Source of the DNA: Planctomycetota bacterium
GTDB taxonomy: Bacteria; Planctomycetota; Phycisphaerae; UBA1845; PWPN01
NCBI GenBank assembly: GCA_016209665.1
Contig: JACQVT010000341.1
Coordinates: 1 to 17,445, forward strand
Length of the DNA: 17,445 bases
Reading direction: 5' to 3'
The position numbers and the translations under genes are program-made. This document shows positions 1 through 15,577 of the stretch, piece by piece. The notes beneath the pieces were generated by a model that saw only the letters and a list, made by a program, of their open reading frames with translations, was not told the origin of the DNA and ran no database searches. The first letter of the stretch is position 1. Every line of letters starts with the position of its first letter.

Positions 1-3000
1 CCACTGCGGTGAGCGGCCGGGCCGCCCCCATCAGAGCAGCTTCCACCCTTGACACGCCGGGGTCTCGGACGCGACAAGGAGCGGCGGAGCCGCCCGGCGT
101 GTCAAGGGCCACCTCCTGCCGCTCGCCACCCGCCGCGGCGGGTAAACTCAGTGGAAACACGGTCAGCCGAACCCGGGCCTGGTCGCCTTTGCGGGCCGGC
201 GGATCGGGACCGCAGCGCACGGCCCGGTAGGTGTCGCCGGTGCTGGAGCGATTGATGAACTCGCGTATCTCATAGCGGCTGCCGATCCGATGGCCCGCCG
301 GCCAAGCATCCGCAGGCGGGGCGCCACGGGGAGCACGGCCAACCGAACAACGACGAACCCAGGTGTACAACCCGCCCAGCGGTTCGCTCAGCCACTTGGG
401 CAGGTTGGCCAGGGCCTCGCCGGGCAGCGGCGGCGGAGCCCCCGGCGAGGCCTCCTCGTGGGCCGCCAGCGCCTCCAGATACTTCGTAGTGGCCGCGGCC
501 CGCAGCGCACCGATCCGGACCTGGCAGGCTGCAAGCTGTCGAGCGACGTACTGGCGGATGCACTCGCGAGCCTGGGCTGCGCCGGCCTGGGCAGGCGGGC
601 AAGACGGGCCCTGGCGGGCCAGGATTTGCTCCCAGATCCGCACCGCGTCCGGAATCTCATCGGAATCGGCGATCTGCTTCGCCGTCTTCAGGTCGGGCAA
701 CTCCTTGACCAGGCAGGCGGCGATGTCCAGAGCAGCCTGGCTCTGGGCATCGAGTCCGGCCTTCAATCCTCTGGCTTGACTCAGAATGGCCAGGGCATTG
801 CCCGCGAGTGACGCCGCTTCATCGAACTCGCCGCTGGCCCTTGACGCGCCGGGCGGCTCCGCCGCTCCTTGTCGCGTCCGCGACCCCGGCGTGTCAAGGG
901 TGGCCACCAACTCCATCGCCCGGTGGCAGTCCTCCCGGGAGGTCCGGACGGCGACCTCCAGCTTCTCGGTCTTCATCCGGATGACCGCGATCAGATTGGC
1001 GGCGGCGAGCCGGGCGTCGTCGTCCGCGTCCGGATGATGGAGGATCTGTTCGGCCAGGATCTTGGCCTCGGGCACGGAGTCGGCCTCATACAGGGCCCGG
1101 GCCTGGGCGGCCTGGGCGCGCAGCGATTGCCGCAGGGCCTCCCAGGCCCTCTCGACCGCCTCGGCCAGCGCGGCCGCCTGCTGGGCGATGGAGGCTTCCG
1201 GGAACGTGCCGTAACGCTCAGCCGTCTTGCGGGCCTCGCTCAGGCGGCCGCGTCCAGCCTTCGGAGCCGAGCCTGCTCCGGCCTGTGCCGAGGCCGCCCA
1301 GCCGGTCTTCGACCCTGAGTGCTCAGACCGAAGGGGGGCGGCTGGGCCACAGGTCTCCTGGGCCGCCGCCAGTTCCGCCCGCGCCGCCTGGATGATCCGC
1401 GACCGCTCCTCAGCCGCCCGCTCCCGCAGGTTCGTGGCCAGGTAGACCTGGTCCGCCGAGCCGCCCTGCGGGGCCAGCTCGCTCAGCACCTTCTCGCAGG
1501 CCTCCTCGACCCGATCGAGGTCCTGCCAGGCCGCCCAGGGGGCTTCGCCCCCCGCACCCCCCGACCCGATTGCCGGTTGCCGATTCCCGATTGCCGATTC
1601 CCGATTTTCGATTTGGGATGGTCCGCCCCCCACGACGGAAGAAGGCGGGCAGGCAGGCCCGCCCCCCGACACGGCGTGGGTGAGCCATTGCAGCGCGCTG
1701 TCCAGCAGGTTCGTGATCGGAAGCTGGATGGCTTCGGCCGAGGCGACCCGGCTCAGGATCGCCCGGGCCGCCTCCTCCTGTGGAGCGGCGCTGTGCCGGT
1801 CGGCCACCACCGACTCGGCCAGGGCCCTGGCCCGCAGCAGCGTGACCTTGTCGAGCCGGCCCGAGTCGAGCAGGGCCTGGGCGCTGGCCAGCGAGCCGGC
1901 GGCGCCGCGACGGCTGCCCAGGTGCTTGAGGCAGTCCTCGACCATGCTCCGCGCCGAGGCGATCCGCGGGGCAACCGTCTCGGGTATGGTCGTCAGCTTC
2001 TCTAAGTTCTCGGCGACGGCGACGATGCCCTTCTCGAGCTTTTCCAGCTCGGCGTCGGTCACCTCCTCGCGGACCAGCAGGCGCCGGTAGGGTCGCGACT
2101 GCTCCACCAGCCAGGCTTCCTCCAGCACCTTCAGCAGGCTCAGGGTCTGGCGGGCCTCGTCGCGCATCTGCTCGCGGATGTACTGAAGGGCGATGATCGC
2201 CTCGCACAACGTGCGGACCCGGCCATGATCGTTGGCGGCCAGGCCCTCCCGCACGCCGCGGACCAGTTGTTCGCCGCCCGAGACCTGGTCCCGCCGGGCC
2301 TTCACCTCGCCGGCCAGGGCGCCGGCGGCGGCCAGTTGGCTCGGGTTGGCCAGGCGGCTCGAACGGACCGCCTCGAGGTGGGTCTCCGATTGCTTCAGCA
2401 GGGCCTCGTCGTACTGTCGATCGAACTGCTTGAGGGTCCGGCGGGCCTCGTCCAACTGCCGGGCCGCCTGCTCGACGGCAGTCCGACGCTCGTGGAGTCG
2501 GCCGCGGAGGCGGTCGGCCTCCTGCGTGAATGGTTCGATTTCGATCGGCCTGGTCACCGCGGCGGGCGGTCGCGCGGCGGCGGCTTCTCCGCCGGTCGAC
2601 GTGGCGACCGCCAGGCCGCTGGCCTGCCAGGCCTGCTCGACCCGCTGCACGACGGCGGCGAGGGCCGCCGCAATCTCGTCGAAGGCCGGCGAGTCCAGTT
2701 CGCCGGCGTCCAGACGGCCGCCCAGCCGACGCAGCTCCTCCTGCTCCCGCAAGACGGCCGCCCGCAGGGCCTTGGCCCGCTCCCGCCGCTCGTGCTCGGC
2801 GATCTCGGCGCTGATCCGGGCGGGGATGTCCGGGTCCATCCGGGCCAGCTCCTCGCGCAGCTTCGTCGCGGTGTCGATCCGCTCGGCCGCCCGGACATCC
2901 GCGGTCGCGTTGATCAGGCGGATCAGGTTGACCAGTTGCTTCTCATCGGACGAGAGGACCCGCTTGTGTTCCTCGTAGGCCTCCAGCACCTTGGCCCAGC

Positions 3001-3760
3001 GGCGATCCGGCGATGCCCTCTGCAGCGGGATGTACTCGAAGAGCGAGGCGTACTTCTCCCACATGCCGTACTTGGCCCGTCCGCCCGCGGGCAGGTTGGG
3101 ATCCAGGTAGGGGTGGCAGTAGGCGAGCAATTCATAGAGCACGACGCCCAGGGCGTGCAGATCGCTCCGCCCATCGGGCAGACCGCCCCCCGGCCCCCAC
3201 AGCGATAGGTCCACGTAGCCGGCGATGCGGTCGGCGTCCGAGCGGTTCGGTGGGATCCATTCCCAGGTGCCGCTGATCGTGGGGCTGTCCTCCCGGCCGC
3301 CCTGCCGCAGGGCCAGGAGCTTGAAGTTGCCCATCGCGTCCTCGAAGGCGCCGGCGATCCCCAGGTCCGTGATCTTCCACAGCGCCCCTGTCCGCAGCAC
3401 GCAAGCCGGACAAAACCCGCCGTGGACGACGCCCGCTCGGTGGGCCGCCTCCAGGCCGCCGGCCACGCAGTAGGCCAGCACCAGGATCGGCTGCAAGTCG
3501 CCTGCGGTGGGCAGGCTGGCAGGATCGCTCAGCCGCGGCAGCGGCTCAATGGCCACCGGCTCGTGCCGGATGAGGAACGCCTCGTCCGTGACCTCAATGC
3601 CGGGCTGAACGCGAAGGATCCCCTCGCCACCGGGGCCGGCGGTGAGTTGGGCCTGGCGCTGCACGCACTGCTCCAGGGCGTGGCGCAGCCGTTCGACCTG
3701 GTCCGGCGTCGCCCCCGGGGGTTTGAGCACGCGTCGAAAGTGCACGGGTTGCTCGGCCAT
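1..3760 (-). CDS. Large pseudokinase / coiled-coil protein, 3' end outside the window
   Basis: The frame is open from the ATG at 3760 through base 1, at least 1,253 codons; I read every in-frame triplet and found no stop. An in-frame TGA at 3775-3773 ends the preceding gene and this is the first ATG after it. Residues about 40-240 resemble the C-lobe of a Ser/Thr protein kinase: VVHGGFCPAC (111-120) sits at the HRDLKPxN loop, DLG (132-134) at DFG, and RSDLHALGVVLYELL carries the subdomain IX Asp (D200). The catalytic Asp, Lys and Asn positions are Gly115, Cys117 and Cys120, and there is no room for a normal G-loop and VAVK lysine, so it is probably a pseudokinase. Residues about 260-1100 are Ala/Glu/Arg-rich and probably coiled coil. 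From about residue 1160 a second kinase-like N-lobe begins (RYEIREF...GDTYRA), also with a poor G-loop and Thr where the lysine is expected. The gene carries two 63-bp palindromic insertions and one heptad-repeat patch in frame. Its partner and substrate are unknown; a scaffold or signalling role is inference. Confidence 0.8.
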   Translation of the reverse strand, partial: MAEQPVHFRRVLKPPGATPDQVERLRHALEQCVQRQAQLTAGPGGEGILRVQPGIEVTDEAFLIRHEPVAIEPLPRLSDPASLPTAGDLQPILVLAYCVAGGLEAAHRAGVVHGGFCPACVLRTGALWKITDLGIAGAFEDAMGNFKLLALRQGGREDSPTISGTWEWIPPNRSDADRIAGYVDLSLWGPGGGLPDGRSDLHALGVVLYELLAYCHPYLDPNLPAGGRAKYGMWEKYASLFEYIPLQRASPDRRWAKVLEAYEEHKRVLSSDEKQLVNLIRLINATADVRAAERIDTATKLREELARMDPDIPARISAEIAEHERRERAKALRAAVLREQEELRRLGGRLDAGELDSPAFDEIAAALAAVVQRVEQAWQASGLAVATSTGGEAAAARPPAAVTRPIEIEPFTQEADRLRGRLHERRTAVEQAARQLDEARRTLKQFDRQYDEALLKQSETHLEAVRSSRLANPSQLAAAGALAGEVKARRDQVSGGEQLVRGVREGLAANDHGRVRTLCEAIIALQYIREQMRDEARQTLSLLKVLEEAWLVEQSRPYRRLLVREEVTDAELEKLEKGIVAVAENLEKLTTIPETVAPRIASARSMVEDCLKHLGSRRGAAGSLASAQALLDSGRLDKVTLLRARALAESVVADRHSAAPQEEAARAILSRVASAEAIQLPITNLLDSALQWLTHAVSGGGPACPPSSVVGGGPSQIENRESAIGNRQPAIGSGGAGGEAPWAAWQDLDRVEEACEKVLSELAPQGGSADQVYLATNLRERAAEERSRIIQAARAELAAAQETCGPAAPLRSEHSGSKTGWAASAQAGAGSAPKAGRGRLSEARKTAERYGTFPEASIAQQAAALAEAVERAWEALRQSLRAQAAQARALYEADSVPEAKILAEQILHHPDADDDARLAAANLIAVIRMKTEKLEVAVRTSREDCHRAMELVATLDTPGSRTRQGAAEPPGASRASGEFDEAASLAGNALAILSQARGLKAGLDAQSQAALDIAACLVKELPDLKTAKQIADSDEIPDAVRIWEQILARQGPSCPPAQAGAAQARECIRQYVARQLAACQVRIGALRAAATTKYLEALAAHEEASPGAPPPLPGEALANLPKWLSEPLGGLYTWVRRCSVGRAPRGAPPADAWPAGHRIGSRYEIREFINRSSTGDTYRAVRCGPDPPARKGDQARVRLTVFPLSLPAAAGGERQEVALDTPGGSAAPCRVRDPGVSRVEAALMGAARPLTAV
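46..108 (+). repeat. 63-bp in-frame palindromic element, copy 1
   Basis: The element has perfect 16-bp terminal inverted repeats (CCCTTGACACGCCGGG at 46-61 and its complement at 93-108) around a GC-rich centre. It is flanked by the 3-bp direct repeat CCA (43-45 and 109-111). It lies within the second kinase-like domain of the long minus-strand gene and adds about 21 residues (LDTPGGSAAPC...), roughly residues 1219-1239, without a stop or frameshift. The orientation is arbitrarily called forward and is the same as copy 3. Confidence 0.9.
838..900 (-). repeat. 63-bp in-frame palindromic element, copy 2 (inverted)
   Basis: This copy has the same length and ends as copy 1, but its centre is in the opposite orientation. 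One arm has a single mismatch (TTGACGCGCC instead of TTGACACGCC). It is flanked by direct repeats TGG (835-837 and 901-903), which read CCA in the element's own orientation. It sits in the coiled-coil region of the long kinase-like gene, at about residues 955-975, and encodes LDTPGSRTRQGAAEPP... in frame. Confidence 0.9.
1566..1614. repeat. Seven tandem heptads (CCGATTG-like) inside a gene
   Basis: Seven consecutive 7-bp units read CCGATTG, CCGGTTG, CCGATTC, CCGATTG, CCGATTC, CCGATTT and TCGATTT. On the minus strand they encode the Asn/Glu/Ile/Gly-rich stretch IENRESAIGNRQPAIG at about residues 716-732 of the kinase-like protein. On both sides the gene turns very G/C-rich and low in complexity (about 1535-1675, including the hairpin GGGGGCTTCGCCCCC). 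The whole patch looks like an insertion tolerated in a linker rather than conserved protein. Confidence 0.75.
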
Positions 3761-3772
3761 GCTCGGTTCGGC

Positions 3773-5362
3773 TCATTCTAAGCGATTCAGGAGGAACCTG
3801 CGCTCGATGAGCCGGCGAACCACGTCCAGCAGGACCGGCGCGATCTCGACGGCCGGTTTGCCCAGTTCGCCGGCCAACCCGTCCATCAACTCGCCGAGCG
3901 TCCGGCTGCCGTCGCAGCGTGCCACCAAGTTGGCCACGAAGGGATCGGCCTGACCCGAGTACGCGAGGCCCTGTTCGAGATGGAACGAGGCTTCCGTCGT
4001 TGCCCAGCCTTCCGCCGACGGCCGCAGGCTCTGCTTGAGTACCACGTGCGGCGAGACCTTCAACCGTTGCCGAAGCAACACGGCGTCGTCGCGGGCGGCG
4101 TCCAGGAAGTCCCGGGCCTCGAACGCGCCGGCCACGTCCTCGCCGGCCGAGCCCAGCATCTTCTCGGGGGCGTCGTCGCCCCGGAACCAGTTACCGCCGC
4201 CGCTCTCGTCAGGGCGAGCCGCCCGCCGCCGCATCGTGATCAAGCCCCCGCTGACCGCTTCGATCCGCTGGCTGCGGTAGTACTCCGTCCAGGCCTCGAA
4301 CCGCTGCTGGTAGTGCTCGGGATCGTCGCGTTCGGTGTGGCGGATCCACTTGGCGGCGTAGCCCTCGGCGTCGAGCGTGTCCGAGCGCATTGCCCAGACG
4401 TCGCAGCCGGTGCCTCGCCCCCAGTCGCGCAGCCGGGCCTGCCAGTCCTGTCCCTCGATGTGGGCCCAGTTGCACAACATCTGGCAGAACCCGCCCTCGA
4501 CCAGCACCGCCGGCACCTGCCGAACGATCGATTGCACCAGGCCGTCGCCCGCGACCCCGCCGTCCCGGTAGATGTAACTCGTCTCCGGCGAGACGACGAA
4601 CGGCGGATTGCAGACCACGAGGTCGAATGGCTGGCCGGCCACGCCGCTGAACAGATCGCTCTGGCGGCAGGAGACGTTCTTCAGGCCGTTCAGCCGCGCG
4701 TTGAAGGCGGCGAACCGCACCGCGCGGGCGTTGCGGTCGACGGCCACGACCTCATCGCAGTGCCGGGCCGCCAGCAAGGCGAGGATCCCGCAACCGGTCC
4801 CCAGGTCGAGCGCCCGCCGCATCCGACGACGGATCGTCAGGTTCGCGAGCGTCAGCGTACTGCTACCGATGCCCATCACGTAGTCTTCATGCCGGCCCCC
4901 CTCAACCCAAGGCGGCAGATCGAACGCCACCAGCAAGCCCTGGAACGCGACCAGCTTGATCCGGCCTCGCACTGAGCCCGCCTCCCTTGACACGCCGGGG
5001 TCGCGGACGCGACAAGGAGCGGCGGAGCCGCCCGGCGTGTCAAGGGCCTCGACCTGGACCAGGCCGGCCGCCTCCCAATCGGCGAGCCTCATCGGCGCGA
5101 TCACCTCCTCGATCCATCCGGCCTCCACCGGCACCCCGACCAGGAACAGCCGAACCAGCGCGTTGAGCGGGGTGCGCTGCTCGGTCTTGGCGAGCAGCGT
5201 CGAGAGGTCCCGCTCCGAGAGCGAGTGCCCGGATTTGATACCCAGCAGTTCGCAAATCGTGCGGTCATCGTAGTGATAGCCGCCAACCAGGGAACGAAAT
5301 CCTTCGATAGCCTCGGGAGTGTCGGACCACAGGAATCGTGAGTCGTCGCCGGATGATGCCAT
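3773..5362 (-). CDS. Class I SAM-dependent methyltransferase with C-terminal winged-helix-like domain
   Basis: The product is 529 residues from the ATG at 5362. Motif I is ALDLGTGCG (D186, G188, G190, G192). VAVD follows at the adenosine-binding acidic strand. The motif IV tetrapeptide NPPF begins at N252, as in N-methyltransferases of the RsmC/HemK type that modify nucleic-acid bases or glutamine amides. An N-terminal region of about 105 residues (SDTPEAIEGFRSLVGG...) precedes it. A C-terminal segment of about 120 residues ends in a helical winged-helix-like tail (RTLGELMDGLAGELG). The layout resembles large actinobacterial and planctomycetal methyltransferases of unknown substrate, which I recall as carrying DUF7059 and DUF7782 domains. 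One 63-bp palindromic element adds residues about 107-127 at the junction before the SAM domain. The stop lies 12 nt before the kinase-like gene in the same frame, so the two are probably one operon. The substrate cannot be told from sequence. Confidence 0.85.
   Translation of the reverse strand: MASSGDDSRFLWSDTPEAIEGFRSLVGGYHYDDRTICELLGIKSGHSLSERDLSTLLAKTEQRTPLNALVRLFLVGVPVEAGWIEEVIAPMRLADWEAAGLVQVEALDTPGGSAAPCRVRDPGVSREAGSVRGRIKLVAFQGLLVAFDLPPWVEGGRHEDYVMGIGSSTLTLANLTIRRRMRRALDLGTGCGILALLAARHCDEVVAVDRNARAVRFAAFNARLNGLKNVSCRQSDLFSGVAGQPFDLVVCNPPFVVSPETSYIYRDGGVAGDGLVQSIVRQVPAVLVEGGFCQMLCNWAHIEGQDWQARLRDWGRGTGCDVWAMRSDTLDAEGYAAKWIRHTERDDPEHYQQRFEAWTEYYRSQRIEAVSGGLITMRRRAARPDESGGGNWFRGDDAPEKMLGSAGEDVAGAFEARDFLDAARDDAVLLRQRLKVSPHVVLKQSLRPSAEGWATTEASFHLEQGLAYSGQADPFVANLVARCDGSRTLGELMDGLAGELGKPAVEIAPVLLDVVRRLIERRFLLNRLE
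4984..5046 (+). repeat. 63-bp in-frame palindromic element, copy 3
   Basis: This copy has the same 63 bp, orientation and arms as copy 1; the centre differs by one base (TCGCGGAC versus TCTCGGAC). It is flanked by direct repeats CCT (4981-4983 and 5047-5049). It lies in the methyltransferase gene and is read on the minus strand as LDTPGGSAAPCRVRDPG..., between the N-terminal region and the SAM-binding domain. Confidence 0.92.
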
Positions 5363-5368
5363 GTTCAA

Positions 5369-8966: not shown

Positions 8967-10496
8967 TCAATACGCCTTTCCGAACACGACGCGCTGACGG
9001 CTCGGCTTGCCGCTGACGACGCACTTACCGTCTTCCGCCGGGGCGTCCAGCGGGATGCAGCGGACCGTCACCTGCAAGTCGTTGCGGAGAGTCTCCTCCA
9101 CCTCGCGCTCGCCGCTCCAGTGGGCGAGGGCAAAGCCGCCGTGGATCTCCGGCTTGTCCTTGTTGGCCGGCGTGAAGAAAGCGTAGAAGTCGTCCTTGTT
9201 GTCGATGCGGACGGTATTGGCCTCGCGGAACGCCCTGGCCCGTTCCAGCAGGCCCTTTTGCATCTCATCGAGCAGGGCGGGGAGCCCGGCCACGAACTCC
9301 GCCCGCTTGGCGCTGTACTTTTCCTTGGGGCCCTGGTCGCGCCGGCCGACGAACACCGAGTCGGCCGCCATGTCCCGCGGCCCGACCTCCAGGCGCAGCG
9401 GGATACCCGCCTTGATCCAGCCCCAGACCTTCTCCCCGCCGCGGCCCTCGCGGGCATCCAACTCGACCTGCACGCATCGACCGTCGTAGTGCACGCCCCG
9501 CAGCTCGCGGGCGAGGTTCTCGCAATACTGCATGACCTCGGCCTTGGTCTCCTCCTTGTGGATCACCGGCAGGATCACCACGTGCGATGGAGCCAGCCGC
9601 GGCGGCAGCACCAGGCCGTCGTCGTCGCCATGCGTCATCACCAGCCCGCCGATCAGCCGCGTCGAGACGCCCCACGACGTCGTCCAGGCATGAATCCGCT
9701 CGCCCTTTTCGTCCAGGAACATGATCTCGGAGGCCTTTGCGAAGTTCTGGCCCAAAAAGTGCGACGTGCCGGCCTGGAGGGCCTTGCGGTCCTGCATCAT
9801 GGCCTCGATGCAGTACGTGTTCACCGCGCCGGGGAAGCGCTCGCCCTCGGTCTTCTCGCCCATGATGACCGGCATGGCCATGTACTCCTCGGCGAAGCGG
9901 GCGTAGACGTCGAGCATCTTCATGGTCTCGTCCATCGCCTCGTCGCGGGTGGCGTGGACGGTGTGGCCCTCCTGCCACAGGAACTCCGTCGTCCGCAGGA
10001 ACAGCCGCGTCCGCATCTCCCACCGCACGACGTTCGCCCACTGATTGATCAGCAGCGGCAGGTCGCGGTAGCTCTGCACCCACTTGGCGAACATCGCTCC
10101 GATGATCGTCTCGGAGGTCGGCCGGACGATCAGCGGCTCTTCCAGCTCCGCCCCCGGCGCCGGGGCGAGTTTGCCGTCCTTGCCCATCTCCAACCGGTGG
10201 TGCGTGACCACCGCGCACTCCTTGGCGAAGCCCTCGACGTGCTCGGCCTCCTTTTGCAGGTAGCTGATGGGGATGAACAAGGGGAAATAGGCGTTCTTGT
10301 GCCCGGTCTCCTTGAACATGCCGTCGAGCACGCGCTGGATGTTCTCCCACAGCGTGTACCCCCACGGCTTGATGACCATGCACCCCCGGACCGGCGAGTT
10401 CTCCGCCAGGTCCGCCGCCCGGATCACCTGCTGGTACCATTCCGGATAGTCTTCCGCCCGCGTGGGCGTGATTGCTGTCTGTACCTTGCCTGCCAT
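8967..10496 (-). CDS. proS: Prolyl-tRNA synthetase, archaeal/eukaryotic type (ProS type 3)
   Basis: The product is 509 residues and charges tRNA-Pro with proline in the cytoplasm. The start ATG 10496 has AGGAAGG 5 nt upstream (10508-10502). Class II motifs are present: RPTSET (125-130), motif 2 RWEMRTRLFLRTTEF (158-172), QAGTSHFLGQ (241-250) and DDDGLVLPPRLAP (291-303), the type-3 form of motif 3. An anticodon-binding domain follows (about 305-400), then a C-terminal domain ending in VVFGKAY with a terminal Tyr, as in archaeal-type enzymes. The bacterial editing insertion between motifs 2 and 3 is absent. In the C-terminal zinc-like region GKCVVSGKPS has one Cys where some relatives have two. 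The gene heads a likely operon with the sulfatase. Confidence 0.96.
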   Translation of the reverse strand: MAGKVQTAITPTRAEDYPEWYQQVIRAADLAENSPVRGCMVIKPWGYTLWENIQRVLDGMFKETGHKNAYFPLFIPISYLQKEAEHVEGFAKECAVVTHHRLEMGKDGKLAPAPGAELEEPLIVRPTSETIIGAMFAKWVQSYRDLPLLINQWANVVRWEMRTRLFLRTTEFLWQEGHTVHATRDEAMDETMKMLDVYARFAEEYMAMPVIMGEKTEGERFPGAVNTYCIEAMMQDRKALQAGTSHFLGQNFAKASEIMFLDEKGERIHAWTTSWGVSTRLIGGLVMTHGDDDGLVLPPRLAPSHVVILPVIHKEETKAEVMQYCENLARELRGVHYDGRCVQVELDAREGRGGEKVWGWIKAGIPLRLEVGPRDMAADSVFVGRRDQGPKEKYSAKRAEFVAGLPALLDEMQKGLLERARAFREANTVRIDNKDDFYAFFTPANKDKPEIHGGFALAHWSGEREVEETLRNDLQVTVRCIPLDAPAEDGKCVVSGKPSRQRVVFGKAY

Positions 10497-10666
10497 GTGT
10501 ACCTTCCTGCGACCAAACTTTACCCTAACGCGACCGTCTATTCTACAGGGCCTGGCGGCAGTCGCCCAGTGTTCCAGGCCGTGTGCCGGCCAGACAAGAG
10601 GGCACGCACGTTCGCTGGCGGTCTTACGAGTGCCTGCCTCGTACACCTGTGTCGACCCGACGCAGC

Positions 10667-10695
10667 CTGCACCCGCCACCCCCACGGTGTACAAT
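10667..10695 (+). promoter_or_regulatory. Possible promoter for the ATPase-RloB pair
   Basis: TACAAT at 10690-10695 is a good -10 box. The hexamer 17 bp upstream, CTGCAC, is a poor -35. It would place the transcript start about 25 nt before the ATG at 10729. This is a guess from consensus only. Confidence 0.3.
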
Positions 10696-10704
10696 GGAAG
10701 GGCT

Positions 10705-10718
10705 GGGACTCACGTCCC
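10705..10718 (+). other. Short hairpin directly before the ATPase ribosome binding site
   Basis: GGGAC and GTCCC flank a 4-nt loop (TCAC). The GAGGTG ribosome binding site (10719-10724) starts immediately after it, 4 nt before the ATG. It might modulate translation, but a stem of 5 bp can occur by chance. Confidence 0.3.
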
Positions 10719-10728
10719 GAGGTGCCGA

Positions 10729-12024
10729 ATGCTGATCGAGTTCAAGGTTGCCAACTTCCGCTCGTTCAGGGACGAGCAGACGCTTAGCATGGTCGCGAGC
10801 GAGGCCGACCAGACGCATCAGGCCAACCTCGTCCGGCAGGATGGCTTTGCCCTCGTGAAGGCTGCCGCCGTCTACGGCCCAAATGCTTCTGGCAAGAGCA
10901 ACCTCATATCAGCCTTGCAGTGTGTCCAGACCTTCGTTGGCGAATCCGCTTCAAGGATGAACCTTGAGGACGAGATTCCTGGAATATCACCATTCCGTCT
11001 CGACCAAGCCTATAGCGACCGCCCATCCAGCTTCGAAGTCCAGTTCACGACGAGGACGGCTCATTACCGGTACGGCTTCTCTGCCTCGCACTGGATGGTC
11101 TGCGAAGAATGGCTTTTCGTGCGGGAACCCCGCGTTGAGATCGAGAAACTGTTGTTCTCCCGAGAATGTAACCCCTCCAACGGGAAGACTTGCTGGGAAT
11201 TCGGTGAACCACTCGCCGGAGGCGACAGAGACATCATCGAGAAGAGAACACGGGAGAATGGCTTGGCGTTGTCCCGCGGTGCCGAGTTGAACGTCGGCCC
11301 CCTGCTTGAACCCTTCCGCTGGTTCCGCAACGAGCTGCGGGTACAAGATCTCTCGCAGAACCTTCACCCGCTTGTCCGCGACACGGTTCGTCGAATGGGC
11401 GACCCGGAGTTCAAGCGACATCTGATCTCCATGCTCCAACACGCGGACCTGGGCATCAAGAATATCGTGATCGTCGAGGGGCCCTGGGAGCAACGCCCGC
11501 TGATTCCGCTGACTCGGGCAACTGCCGAGGAGGGATCCGTATTCGCGGTCCACAGCACGAATACCCGCGATTCCACGGTCGACATGGACTTCTTTCGCGA
11601 TGAATCCCTCGGGACCCAGCGGTTCCTCGTGATGGCCGGTTTTCTTCTTTCCGCCCTGACCGAGGGACAGACGCTGGTGTTGGACGAGTTCGACTGCAGC
11701 CTCCATCCGCTGCTGGCCCGCAAGCTGATTGAGCTGTTCCAGAGCGAAGACCTCGGCAAAGCGGGCGGGCAACTCATCTTCGCCACGCACGATAGCACCT
11801 TGATGGACCCTGTCCTGTTCCGCAGGGATCAGATCTGGCTGGTCGAGAAGAACGCACTGGGGGGATCAGAGCTTTGCTCGGTCCACGATTTCGACGTAAG
11901 CAGCGAACGACCGACGACGGCAAGCCTCCAGCGAGACTATCTCGCAGGTCGATTTGGTGCTGTGCCGAGATTCGGCCCGACCTTCGAGGATCTGAAGCTG
12001 AAGCCCGCTGGAGCAAATGAATGA
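10729..12024 (+). CDS. AAA/ABC-type ATPase, RloA/AbiLi-like defence component
   Basis: The product is 431 residues; the start ATG 10729 has GAGGTG close upstream. It opens with MLIEFKVANFRSFRD, the usual N-terminus of SMC/ABC-like ATPases of the AAA_21/AAA_15 type. Walker A is GPNASGKS (50-57). A signature-like segment SLGTQRF lies near 293. Walker B is TLVLDEFDCSLHP (D319, E320), followed by a switch histidine in FATHDSTLMD (H354). The architecture and the RloB gene directly behind it match the RloA/RloB pair first seen in Campylobacter restriction loci and the AbiLi/AbiLii abortive infection system. Presumed role: the ATPase senses infection and controls the TOPRIM-like partner. The 4-nt overlap with RloB implies translational coupling. 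Anti-phage activity is inference from family, not shown here. Confidence 0.9.
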   Translation: MLIEFKVANFRSFRDEQTLSMVASEADQTHQANLVRQDGFALVKAAAVYGPNASGKSNLISALQCVQTFVGESASRMNLEDEIPGISPFRLDQAYSDRPSSFEVQFTTRTAHYRYGFSASHWMVCEEWLFVREPRVEIEKLLFSRECNPSNGKTCWEFGEPLAGGDRDIIEKRTRENGLALSRGAELNVGPLLEPFRWFRNELRVQDLSQNLHPLVRDTVRRMGDPEFKRHLISMLQHADLGIKNIVIVEGPWEQRPLIPLTRATAEEGSVFAVHSTNTRDSTVDMDFFRDESLGTQRFLVMAGFLLSALTEGQTLVLDEFDCSLHPLLARKLIELFQSEDLGKAGGQLIFATHDSTLMDPVLFRRDQIWLVEKNALGGSELCSVHDFDVSSERPTTASLQRDYLAGRFGAVPRFGPTFEDLKLKPAGANE

Positions 12025-12686
12025 TGAGGCGAGGCCGCGCCCCACTGGACATCCGACCGAAGCGCCTTCCCCGGCATCGCCAGCCCGTTGAGACAATCCT
12101 GATCGTTGGTGAAGGGAAGGAGACCGAGCCCAACTACTTCCGGGGCCTCCGCGACGACCCACGGGTGCGCGATCGAATCCGTTTGATCGTGAAGGAGGGC
12201 CGTGGGGGTTCCCCGGAGGACGTCACCCGGCAGGCCATCAAAGAAAAGGCTGATGCGGAGGACCGCCAGGAAGCATTCGAGGAAGTGTGGTGTGTATGGG
12301 ACTTGGAGGGATCGAACCAGTTCCAGTCAGCCCGAACGGCGATCGGCCTGGCCACCGCGAACGGCGTCACCCCCTGTGCCTCGAACCCGTGCTTCGAGGT
12401 GTGGTTCCTATCCCACTTTCAACGAGCGTCGCGTCCGTTCAACGACGGTGACGCTGTGATCCGGGAGCTGAACAGGTACTGGCAGGATCACTGCGGACAG
12501 AGGTATCGTAAGTCGGATGCAGACGTCTACAGTCGCCTGTCCGGCCTGACGAGCACCGCCATCAGCAATGCTCGGGAAGTCCTGGAGAGCGACCACCAAG
12601 GCAGGCCATGCATCGAAGCCAATTCCTCGACCGAGGTCTACCGCCTCGTCCGCCGGTTACTTGGACAACAGAAGGAGGCGACTTGA
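12021..12686 (+). CDS. RloB-family protein, TOPRIM-like putative effector
   Basis: The product is 221 residues. The ATG at 12021 overlaps the ATPase stop (ATGA), and GGAG at 12010-12013 gives a 7-nt spacing. Family hallmarks: ILIVGEGKETEPNYF (26-40), with the Glu expected at a TOPRIM active site; WCVWDLEG (90-97), where the acidic D94-x-E96 replaces the more usual D-x-D; SNPCFEVWFLSHF (121-133); and a C-terminal STEVYRLV. The N-terminal 20 residues are basic. It is the likely effector of the ATPase-RloB module, possibly acting on nucleic acid. The reaction has not been established for this family as far as I know. A second in-frame ATG at 12024 is an alternative start. Confidence 0.9.
   Translation: MMRRGRAPLDIRPKRLPRHRQPVETILIVGEGKETEPNYFRGLRDDPRVRDRIRLIVKEGRGGSPEDVTRQAIKEKADAEDRQEAFEEVWCVWDLEGSNQFQSARTAIGLATANGVTPCASNPCFEVWFLSHFQRASRPFNDGDAVIRELNRYWQDHCGQRYRKSDADVYSRLSGLTSTAISNAREVLESDHQGRPCIEANSSTEVYRLVRRLLGQQKEAT
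12672..12678 (+). promoter_or_regulatory. Ribosome binding site inside the end of rloB for a TTG start
   Basis: AAGGAGG lies 4 nt before TTG 12683, which overlaps the rloB stop (TTGA). It suggests the truncated gene behind rloB was once translated, possibly coupled to it. Confidence 0.5.
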
Positions 12687-13726: not shown

Positions 13727-15577
13727 GTGGGCGGGCTATACTGGTTTGACGTGGCTACCGCCGTGACCGAGGTCAAGCGCGACAAGCTCGCCAACTCCGT
13801 CGGCATCGTCCAGACGCAGACGGTCCGCCTGTTCGACCGGCCGGGTGACGAGCTGCGCCTGGAGTGCGGGCGGACACTGGCCCCGGTCGACGTGGCCTAC
13901 GAGACCTACGGGACGCTCAATGCCGAGCGCACCAACGCCGTACTGATCTGCCACGCCCTGACCGGCGATGCCCACGTGGCCGGCTGGCACAGCGAGACCG
14001 ACCGCAAGCCCGGCTGGTGGGACATCATGGTCGGGCCGGGCAAGGGCATCGACACCCACAGGTACTTCGTCATCTGCTCAAACGTGCTGGGGGGCTGCCG
14101 GGGCACGACCGGCCCGTCCTGCATCAACCCCGCCACCGGCAGGCCGTGGGGCCTGGACTTCCCGGTCATCACCATCGAGGACATGGTCAAGGTGCAAAAG
14201 CGGCTCGTCGAGCACCTGGGCATCCGGCGGCTGCTCTGCGTGACCGGCGGGTCGATGGGCGGCATGCAGGTGTTGGAGTGGACGGTGCGCTACCCGGAGG
14301 CCGTCGCCTCGGCGATTCCGATCGCCACCACCGCCCGGCTCAACGCTCAGTCGATCGCGTTCGATGCCGTAGGCCGCAGCGCCATCCTGGCCGACCCGAA
14401 CTACGCCAACGGGCAATATCACCAGGGTCCGTCGCCGGACCGCGGTCTGGCCATCGCCCGCATGGTCGGCCACATCACCTACCTGTCCGAGCAGGGCATG
14501 CACGAGAAGTTCGGCCGGCAGCTCCGCAACGCCGACACCTACAAGTACGATTTCACCAGCGAGTTCTCCGTCGAGACATACCTGGACCACCAGGGCCGCA
14601 TCTTCGTCGAACGGTTCGACGCCAACAGCTATCTTTACATCACCAAAGCGGTGGACTACTACGACCTGGGCGCCCAGCGGGGTTCGGTCGAGGCCGCGTT
14701 CAAGAACGTGCAGGCCCGCTTCCTCGTGATCAGCTTCTCGAGCGACTGGCTGTTCACGTCGCCCCAGTCGCGGCAGATCGTCGACGCCCTGCTGGCCAAC
14801 GACAAGGACGTGTCGTACAGCGAGGTGAACTCGCGTTACGGGCACGATGCGTTTTTGCTCGAGCCGGAGGTCCTCGGCCGGCTCATCGGGGGGTTCCTGG
14901 CCCGGGTCGAGGGCCGGCCCGTGCTGCAGGACAGCCAGGACCTCCACCCGTACCGCCAGAAGCCGGACGTCGAGTCCGCCTGGCGCCGCCGCCGCATCGA
15001 CTACGAGCGGATCGAAGACCTGATCGCGCGGGGCAGCCGGGTCCTGGACCTGGGATGCGGACGTGGCATATTATTGTCACTCTTGCAGCAGCGCAAACAG
15101 GTGGACGGTCTGGGCGTCGAGGTCGTGCAGGCCGATCTTTGCGAGTGCATCGACCGCGGCTTGCGGGTGCTGGATCTCGACATCGAGACCGAGCTGGGCT
15201 CGTTCGCGACCGGTGCCTATGATTACGTCATCCTCGCCCATACGCTCCAGACGCTGACCCGCCCCGACCGCGTGCTCCGCGAGATGCTCCGCGTGGGACG
15301 CCAGGGCATCGTCAGCTTTCCGAACTTCGCCTACTGGCGTTCCCGCTGGCAGATGGCGGTGGGCCGGGCCCCGGTGACCGAGACGCTGCCCTACCGCTGG
15401 TACAACACCCCGAACCGGCATTTCCTGTCCATCGCGGACTTCGAGGACTTCTGTCGCGACAATGGCATCCGCATCAGCCGGCGCCTCCCGCTGATCGAGG
15501 GCCATCGCGGCGCGATCCACCTGCTGCCCAACCTCCGTGCCTCCGAGGCCATCTTTGTCATCAGCAATCATGGATGA
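13727..15577 (+). CDS. metX: MetX-MetW fusion: homoserine O-acyltransferase with MetW methyltransferase-like domain
   Basis: This is a single 616-codon ORF. Residues about 25-400 are MetX, which acylates the hydroxyl of L-homoserine in methionine synthesis. They include LECGRTLAPVDVAYETYGTLN, the nucleophile elbow GGSMGGMQ (Ser176), Asp340 in SFSSDWLF and His373 in YGHDAFLLE, a complete alpha/beta-hydrolase triad. Residues 423-616 are MetW: RIDYERIEDLI, motif I VLDLGCGRG (439-447), and later FPNFAYWRSRWQ and PYRWYNTPNRHFLS, all typical of MetW. The two are usually separate adjacent genes (metX-metW); here no stop separates them. The start is uncertain: GTG 13727, 13751 or 13763 all precede the conserved part, none with a strong ribosome binding site. 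A TATACT at 13737-13742 would fit a leaderless start at 13751. Acetyl or succinyl preference cannot be read from this alone. Confidence 0.93.
   Translation: MGGLYWFDVATAVTEVKRDKLANSVGIVQTQTVRLFDRPGDELRLECGRTLAPVDVAYETYGTLNAERTNAVLICHALTGDAHVAGWHSETDRKPGWWDIMVGPGKGIDTHRYFVICSNVLGGCRGTTGPSCINPATGRPWGLDFPVITIEDMVKVQKRLVEHLGIRRLLCVTGGSMGGMQVLEWTVRYPEAVASAIPIATTARLNAQSIAFDAVGRSAILADPNYANGQYHQGPSPDRGLAIARMVGHITYLSEQGMHEKFGRQLRNADTYKYDFTSEFSVETYLDHQGRIFVERFDANSYLYITKAVDYYDLGAQRGSVEAAFKNVQARFLVISFSSDWLFTSPQSRQIVDALLANDKDVSYSEVNSRYGHDAFLLEPEVLGRLIGGFLARVEGRPVLQDSQDLHPYRQKPDVESAWRRRRIDYERIEDLIARGSRVLDLGCGRGILLSLLQQRKQVDGLGVEVVQADLCECIDRGLRVLDLDIETELGSFATGAYDYVILAHTLQTLTRPDRVLREMLRVGRQGIVSFPNFAYWRSRWQMAVGRAPVTETLPYRWYNTPNRHFLSIADFEDFCRDNGIRISRRLPLIEGHRGAIHLLPNLRASEAIFVISNHG

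Follow-up and report, generated by a model that had tools for sequence, protein, structure and literature searches.

A dispersed, frame-neutral palindromic element inserted within genes of Phycisphaerae bacteria, with relatives in phage contigs

Results

Palindromic elements in the window and their host genes

The window analysed here (17,445 nt) is contig C211 of a Planctomycetota metagenome-assembled genome (MAG; 4.87 Mb, 940 contigs, completeness 77.6%, coded G000), and it carries three copies of a 63-bp palindromic element inside protein-coding genes. This element, the family to which it belongs and the way in which it may move are the subject of this study. The original prediction had described three 63-bp insertions bracketed by exact 3-bp repeats (CCA, TGG and CCT), and both the positions and the repeats are as claimed:

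46..108, plus strand: copy 1, 63 bp, in the minus-strand open reading frame (ORF) at 2-3760, close to its 3' end at the contig edge; 71.8 bits with model R1
43..45 (left) and 109..111 (right): CCA, 3-bp target duplication flanking copy 1
838..900, minus strand: copy 2, 63 bp, opposite in orientation to copies 1 and 3, in the same ORF as copy 1
835..837 (left) and 901..903 (right): TGG, 3-bp target duplication flanking copy 2
4984..5046, plus strand: copy 3, 63 bp, within a methyltransferase gene; minus-strand reading LDTPGGSAAPCRVRDPGVSR
4981..4983 (left) and 5047..5049 (right): CCT, 3-bp target duplication flanking copy 3
2..3760, minus strand: host ORF of copies 1 and 2, 1253 aa, continuing past the contig edge, without a Pfam match
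3773..5368, minus strand: host ORF of copy 3, with DUF7059, MTS methyltransferase and DUF7782

All three copies start and finish with CCCTTGAC and GTCAAGGG, respectively. The 16-bp inverted ends proposed for them are perfect in copies 1 and 3 but carry one mismatch in copy 2. The 22-codon insert of copy 3 sits between the DUF7059 and methyltransferase domain matches, and its predicted peptide includes LDTPGGSAAPCR. A search with residues 880-1253 of the protein hosting copies 1 and 2 returned only the protein itself; because no homologous gene was found, insertion of these two copies is argued from their duplications and their membership of the family described below.

Copy number and target duplications in the genome

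The gapped pattern CCCTTGACN{28,58}GTCAAGGG occurs at 46 places in G000 and at none when reversed as a control, so the window elements are not chance occurrences. A covariance model of the two-hairpin form gave 105 matches in this genome with both strands counted, and a tolerant scan of the fetched stretches, which demanded 12 of 15 paired end positions and so favours paired changes, puts the number of copies at about 60 (64 rows, three of them composites or doubtful). Exact family copies span about 61-84 bp and contain no transposase gene, in line with the proposal that the element encodes no enzyme of its own.

Flanking repeats at other genomic copies, which had been suggested as a check on mobility, are present. 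The count covered 45 copies and excluded the outer composites of two nested cases, L045 (80) and L093 (77), together with L031 on contig C703, the one of the 46 exact copies that falls at a contig edge. An exact direct repeat flanks 39 of the 45, being 3 bp long in 29 and 4 bp long in 10, and three of the six others show a 4-bp repeat with one mismatch (L087, L090 and L096). When right flanks were shuffled among copies 5000 times, a repeat flanked 5.1 copies on average and never more than 14. A CCW target, as inferred originally from the window, is too simple for the family: CGA/TCG (11) is as common as CCA/TGG (10) among the 29 3-bp duplications, and of the 10 4-bp duplications six are CCAG/CTGG. 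The duplication is preceded by G and followed by C in 22 of 39 copies.

Palindromic pairs around the target numbered 85 in G000 against 70.5 after shuffling, with 91 of 5000 shuffles as high (37 copies, nested ones excluded). Given so modest an excess, insertion into hairpin loops only was rejected. In genomes G002, G005 and G010, some copies sit in triloops or palindromes, and by eye copies at L105-L120 (G002), L126 and L128 (G005) and L122 (G010) lie within loops of other palindromes. The arrangements include 66-bp elements that carry 64-bp elements in their TTC/GAA loop, a further repeated palindrome that encloses 66-bp elements, and a terminator-like hairpin with copies in its loop. Two genera, at L067 (G009) and L129-L131 (G003), have different elements (61 and 68 bp) at one and the same TGGA/TCCA site, which stands in a similar repeated context in both.

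Nested copies and empty sites

In all three nested cases examined, removing the inner copy and one duplication restores a complete outer element. The outer element of L093 is 63 bp, is identical to the inner copy and has its own TCG duplication; that of L045 is 63 bp with its own CCA duplication, and that of L122 (G010) is 72 bp with its own TCAG duplication. Both nested copies of L045 lie in an open frame whose product matches Nucleos_tra2_N, Gate and Nucleos_tra2_C (a nucleoside transporter), and the orthologous transporter of G008 aligns on both sides while lacking exactly the 44 residues that correspond to 2 x 66 bp.

Empty sites, which the original prediction had named as a test, were also found for copy 3. 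Among the best 119 of 680 aligned methyltransferase homologues, 117 are gapped throughout the columns occupied by the copy 3 peptide; P0065 has two residues there and P0031 has 13, apparently from a different local repeat. Of the 20 element-bearing proteins scanned, 17 match Pfam families, most of which bear no relation to one another, for example DUF1611, M20 peptidase, sulfatase, MFS, class I aminotransferase and ABC transporters. The nested copies and the empty sites in homologues refute a conserved, non-mobile motif, and with the duplications they bear out the earlier view of a mobile palindrome.

Reading frame and length arithmetic

It had further been proposed that element plus duplication (66 bp, 22 codons) keeps the host frame intact. 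For 61 copies, the left and right flanks (180 bp, cut 6) were scored independently for coding with no condition on the element. In 25 copies both flanks were coding on the same strand, and in every one of these the frame was continuous and the element open (none shifted, none stopped). The result was the same at flank lengths of 150 bp (24/24) and 240 bp (22/22). Best scores fell on opposite strands in 1, 2 and 5 copies at 150, 180 and 240 bp, respectively, and 34 copies were not coding on both sides at 180 bp (34-36 across flank lengths). This score, a rough gene finder, was itself trained on these stretches; at a GC content of 0.67 a coding signal often appears on both strands, and L088 and L150 switch sides as flank length changes.

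An earlier score counted a copy as genic only if a single open frame, with codon use like that of genes, crossed the element. By this score, the 25 genic rows that have an exact duplication all sum to a multiple of 3, but this and the near-absence of the TGA phase are largely built in because the definition demands an open frame. Rows scored as intergenic or edge, some of which fall at gene ends, add a multiple of 3 in 20 of 24 cases with an exact duplication, as does one ambiguous row; the four that do not are L038:4116, L082, L084 and L144. Across 50 exact copies, the combinations of length modulo 3 and duplication length are (0,3) in 31, (2,4) in 15, (2,3) in three and (1,4) in one. The terminal octamer contains TGA in one of its three phases. 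Only L041:8762 is read in that phase, and there the stop is removed by changes at both ends, to CCCTTTAC and GTAAAGGG.

Fold and covariation

Beyond the inverted ends that had been predicted, the element contains two or three covarying inner hairpins. Covariation was assessed on an alignment, made without structure, of the 43 of 65 distinct 60-66-bp copies that resemble the two-hairpin reference; the 22 excluded as unlike it comprise 15 of G002, six of other genomes and L089. The fold model consists of a 15-pair outer stem and two hairpins of six and five pairs. In the 43 copies, 96.2% of cells are paired compared with 90.1% after shuffling, and 12 of the 26 pairs show changes on both sides, counts that are not of independent events since the aligned copies are related. 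None of 500 shuffles reached the covariation score, and sliding the partner abolished it. Nine outer pairs are invariant, eight of them fixed by the search pattern, and pair 9:57 is unpaired in 22 of 43 copies.

Five folded strands, including both strands of copy 3, lay 6.7 to 8.6 standard deviations below their shuffles with DNA and RNA energies. The expected branches appeared in the DNA fold of all five, and one three-hairpin copy differs under RNA energies. Longer copies (69-84 bp) are mostly three-hairpin by eye. Altered ends were seen in 16 copies: at one end only in 12 and at both ends in three, the remaining one being a doubtful copy. The both-end changes, at L041:8762, L048:584 and L090:756, fall exactly at paired positions.

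Distribution among bacteria

The exact gapped pattern was found in 18 of 101 genomes, G000 included, while the reversed control gave one match in each of three; some single matches, such as those of G004 and G027, which have no duplication, may be due to chance. The only genome of the same genus searched had zero exact matches. Covariance model matches were present in 15 of 41 genomes, with the highest numbers (both strands) in G000 (105), G002 (40), G010 (11) and G005 (10), and G002 has 16 exact copies.

A stricter pattern, applied to a named genome collection that may omit records of G000, returned 28 stretches, of which 24 are titled Phycisphaerae, Phycisphaerales, Phycisphaera or Planctomycetota and four are others. 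Three of these, titled Prevotella (L230), Chloroflexi (L234) and Alphaproteobacteria (L238), were rejected as members, having no duplication and no such inner hairpins. The fourth, L219, under a gammaproteobacterial (Nevskiales) title, holds a family-like copy with a CCAG duplication and is likely a true family copy; its contig is equal in length (63,078) to one listed as encoding a Phycisphaerae-type phage capsid homologue and, going by length alone, may be misbinned phage DNA.

Related elements in phage contigs

A viral collection was searched with three patterns, and exact copies of 77-84 bp were found in six viral contigs (L311, L312, L313, L315, L316 and L317). A further contig, L318, was rejected as it carries an AT-rich simple hairpin without a duplication. 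In five of the six, the scanned proteins include terminase, portal, head protease, capsid, head-tail joining or tape-measure proteins; the single protein tested from L315 had no family match. Several of the phage copies lie in frame in head-protein genes. An exact 4-bp duplication flanks five of seven copies in L311-L313, giving sums of 81 or 84, and none of four in L315-L317, where the L315 copy has a 3-bp repeat (sum 83) and one 84-bp L317 copy would sum to 88. L316 and L317 share one common insertion in a prohead protease gene, identical and on opposite strands.

The 77-bp copy of L313 lies in frame in a head protease/capsid fusion, and its 4-bp repeat is now inexact (two of four positions mismatched). 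Its insert columns hold no residue in 111 of 119 aligned homologues and one to six residues in seven. A close relative, P0123, shares the insert, and in P0148 a similar peptide lies elsewhere in the protein. Among the homologues listed, 17 carry an organism name, 13 of them Phycisphaerae-type, two other Planctomycetes and two other, so these are probably phages that infect the Phycisphaerae group. Matches in the phage collection were only partial (at most 52% of the query) at E 5.

Search for a mobilising enzyme

The original prediction supposed that a transposase acts in trans. Five Pfam families (Y1_Tnp, DDE_Tnp_1_4, DDE_Tnp_1, ISAzo13-type and rve) were each searched in 14 genomes. G000 had no DDE_Tnp_1, DDE_Tnp_1_4, ISAzo13-type (PF07592) or rve match and four Y1_Tnp matches, and G002 had no Y1_Tnp, DDE_Tnp_1, DDE_Tnp_1_4 or rve match and one ISAzo13-type (PF07592) fragment. 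PF13701 and PF01609 had zero matches in these genomes, which hold more copies than any other. Incomplete MAGs often lack repeated insertion sequences, and because G000 and G002 are such MAGs these absences weigh little. Y1_Tnp was found in 12 of the 14 genomes, including G000; of 30 Y1_Tnp loci, seven carry CCCTTGAC strings, all of them unpaired by any such string on the opposite strand.

Candidates for a longer parent element were rejected. Of 89 end pairs 150-4000 bp apart, in the loci fetched by then, nine, from five places, share a 3- or 4-bp repeat, and these are short neighbouring copies or chance. Among part of the 114 CCCTTGACNCG sites in G000, the unpaired ones inspected are decayed short copies or chance, and a plasmid match inside an annotated IS5-family transposase gene (27 bases, E 0.1) was taken as chance.

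Other features of the window

Within the ORF of copies 1 and 2, positions 1560-1620 hold a degenerate GATTGCCGATTCCCGA-type repeat that recurs in L041 at about 1170 and is possibly another in-gene repeat family. At 10462-12686, an AAA ATPase (AAA_21) is directly followed by a RloB-like protein, a pair that we take to resemble the RloA/RloB defence genes. A single ORF at 13727-15577 fuses an alpha/beta hydrolase, presumably homoserine acetyltransferase-like, with MetW.

Discussion

A probable frame-neutral transposon moved in trans

The family is dispersed and has near-invariant CCCTTGAC ends. Its insertions are clean, duplicate 3 or 4 bp of the target and occur within its own copies as well; in coding genes the element lies in frame, and paired changes preserve its foldable structure. 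We consider it highly likely that the element is a non-autonomous palindromic transposon, the size of a miniature inverted-repeat transposable element (MITE) at about 61-84 bp, that is frame-neutral and moved in trans. An enzyme supplied in trans would recognise the ends, probably along with the fold (as a cruciform or a single strand), would make cuts staggered by 3 or 4 bp at G^NNN(N)^C-like target sites and would join the element in. Insertions whose element and duplication do not sum to a multiple of 3, or which place TGA in frame, would be lost from genes, and those remaining would be translated as a linker of about 22-28 residues; a translated linker of whole codons would allow the element to persist within coding sequence. 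Phages, probably of the same bacteria, carry related copies and may move these between hosts. Most simply, the lengths reflect an enzyme that leaves 3 or 4 bp and the survival in genes of whole-codon insertions only.

Several points weigh against this account. None of the five transposase families searched in the 14 genomes supplied an enzyme, leaving the trans-acting part of the original proposal without a candidate, and in the fetched stretches no transposase gene was seen within a long element bounded by such ends. The coupling of length and duplication is strong in intergenic and edge rows too, and in-gene selection alone does not fully explain it; from this link, element lineages may themselves have turned frame-neutral. 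Translation of the element is suggested by open frames only. A 4-bp duplication flanks only five of the 11 exact phage copies, and L315 has a 3-bp repeat giving 83. Finally, a DDE transposase would have no need for the inner hairpins and duplications are not expected from an HUH enzyme, so that neither textbook mechanism fits both the hairpins and the duplications.

A bolder version, which we put forward tentatively, is that the family may be a new class of transposon in bacteria and phages, in which the folded strand (a three- or four-way-junction palindrome) is the mobile unit, recognised by an undescribed enzyme, with element length matched to duplication length to give whole codons in most insertions, so that it could persist in coding DNA and pass between Phycisphaerae and their phages.

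Alternative explanations

It is quite possible that the element is an ordinary MITE of a DDE insertion sequence, recognised by its double-stranded ends alone, with the inner hairpins kept for another reason such as transcript tolerance. The near-invariant 8-bp ends, the 3-4 bp duplications and the surrounding G...C bias look DDE-like, and ISPsy8 gives 3-bp direct repeats in REP (repetitive extragenic palindromic) palindromes (PMC1525189). However, no parent was found, with PF01609, PF13701 and rve lacking matches in the copy-rich G000 and G002, and recognition of the ends only does not predict inner hairpins that covary and recur as two or three of differing sequence.

RNA- or repair-mediated capture, in which a staggered break receives a copy of a folded transcript or of a single-stranded hairpin and its fill-in makes the 3-4 bp duplication, is unlikely in our view. 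It would account for the covariation that preserves the structure of an element expected to be co-transcribed with its gene, for a stagger that varies between 3 and 4 bp, and for the three copies with both-end changes at exactly paired positions, as fold-back copying or correction would give. Such paired changes are, however, favoured by the scan requirement of 12 of 15 paired end positions, and precise ends with the same octamer across genera and phages suggest enzymatic end recognition.

Less probable again is a REPIN-like element moved as folded single-stranded DNA by a Y1 (HUH, RAYT) transposase. Its topology of inverted halves, hairpins and compensatory changes is near that of REPINs (PMC3116915), and Y1_Tnp is present in 12 of 14 genomes, G000 included. 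Against this stand the target duplications at both ends, the lack of a GTAG tag, the location in genes, the 16 exact copies of G002 in a genome with no Y1_Tnp match, and the absence of paired CCCTTGAC at the 30 Y1_Tnp loci. That the element is no mobile unit at all, being a conserved protein motif or structured RNA of its genes, can be dismissed, since the open frame and strong fold that might suggest it are set against homologues without the element, unrelated protein families, duplications, self-nesting and 0 Rfam matches in the window at gathering cut-offs.

Comparison with known systems

A palindromic transposon moved in trans, the reading that we prefer, shares features with several known systems. 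We found no prior description of this family in searches of the open-licence literature, and the family is real, mobile, frame-neutral and new as far as those searches reach. MITEs generally make target duplications. Bacterial MITEs (RUP, NEMIS, ERIC and Nezha among others) have inverted ends and no gene and are presumably mobilised in trans (PMC10969869, PMC3733652), with a size given as 70-300 bp (PMC3733652). They are nearest in anatomy, sharing inverted ends, a target duplication and the lack of a transposase gene. The present family differs in having no parent insertion sequence found (five families, incomplete MAGs), in its two or three covarying inner hairpins, in an element plus duplication of mostly whole codons and in a size at or below the lower end of the MITE range.

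Nearest in shape are REPINs, which are short, have no coding capacity, form a hairpin from inverted halves with compensatory changes, are extragenic and are tied to RAYT genes (PMC3116915). Our elements are likewise short, noncoding for enzymes and built of inverted halves with compensatory changes, but they lie in genes, have target duplications and no GTAG tag, and occur in G002, which has no Y1_Tnp match. Mitochondrial double-hairpin or repetitive hairpin-forming elements are tiny, potentially mobile and reported to occur inside genes too (PMC2800124). These properties are shared by our family, which differs in being bacterial and phage-borne, in its three- or four-way fold with a closed outer stem and in its clear 3-4 bp duplications. 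As for an IS3/IS1397-like element targeting REP sequences, rve had no match in the incomplete G000 and G002, and some G002, G005 and G010 copies lie in hairpin loops.

To our knowledge, in-gene palindromes are known mainly from Rickettsia, without a clear route of movement, and we know of no reported target duplication for Rickettsia palindromic elements (RPEs). RPEs are dispersed palindromes in frame within unrelated protein genes, about 150 bp long and with a CGTC tag at one end (PMC10969869, PMC3733652). They are the nearest system in behaviour, also being palindromes in frame inside unrelated protein genes. Our elements differ in their length of about 61-84 bp, in their CCCTTGAC...GTCAAGGG ends in place of the CGTC tag, in their exact 3-4 bp target duplications and in their GC-rich Phycisphaerae and phage hosts. 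RPE-like in-gene behaviour thus recurs in a distant phylum together with a signature of mobility, namely target duplications, self-insertions and empty sites, and with related copies in phage head-protein genes. This makes it testable how palindromes enter genes and why proteins tolerate them, shows the simple arithmetic by which a transposon can be harmless within genes, and suggests that an enzyme awaits discovery.

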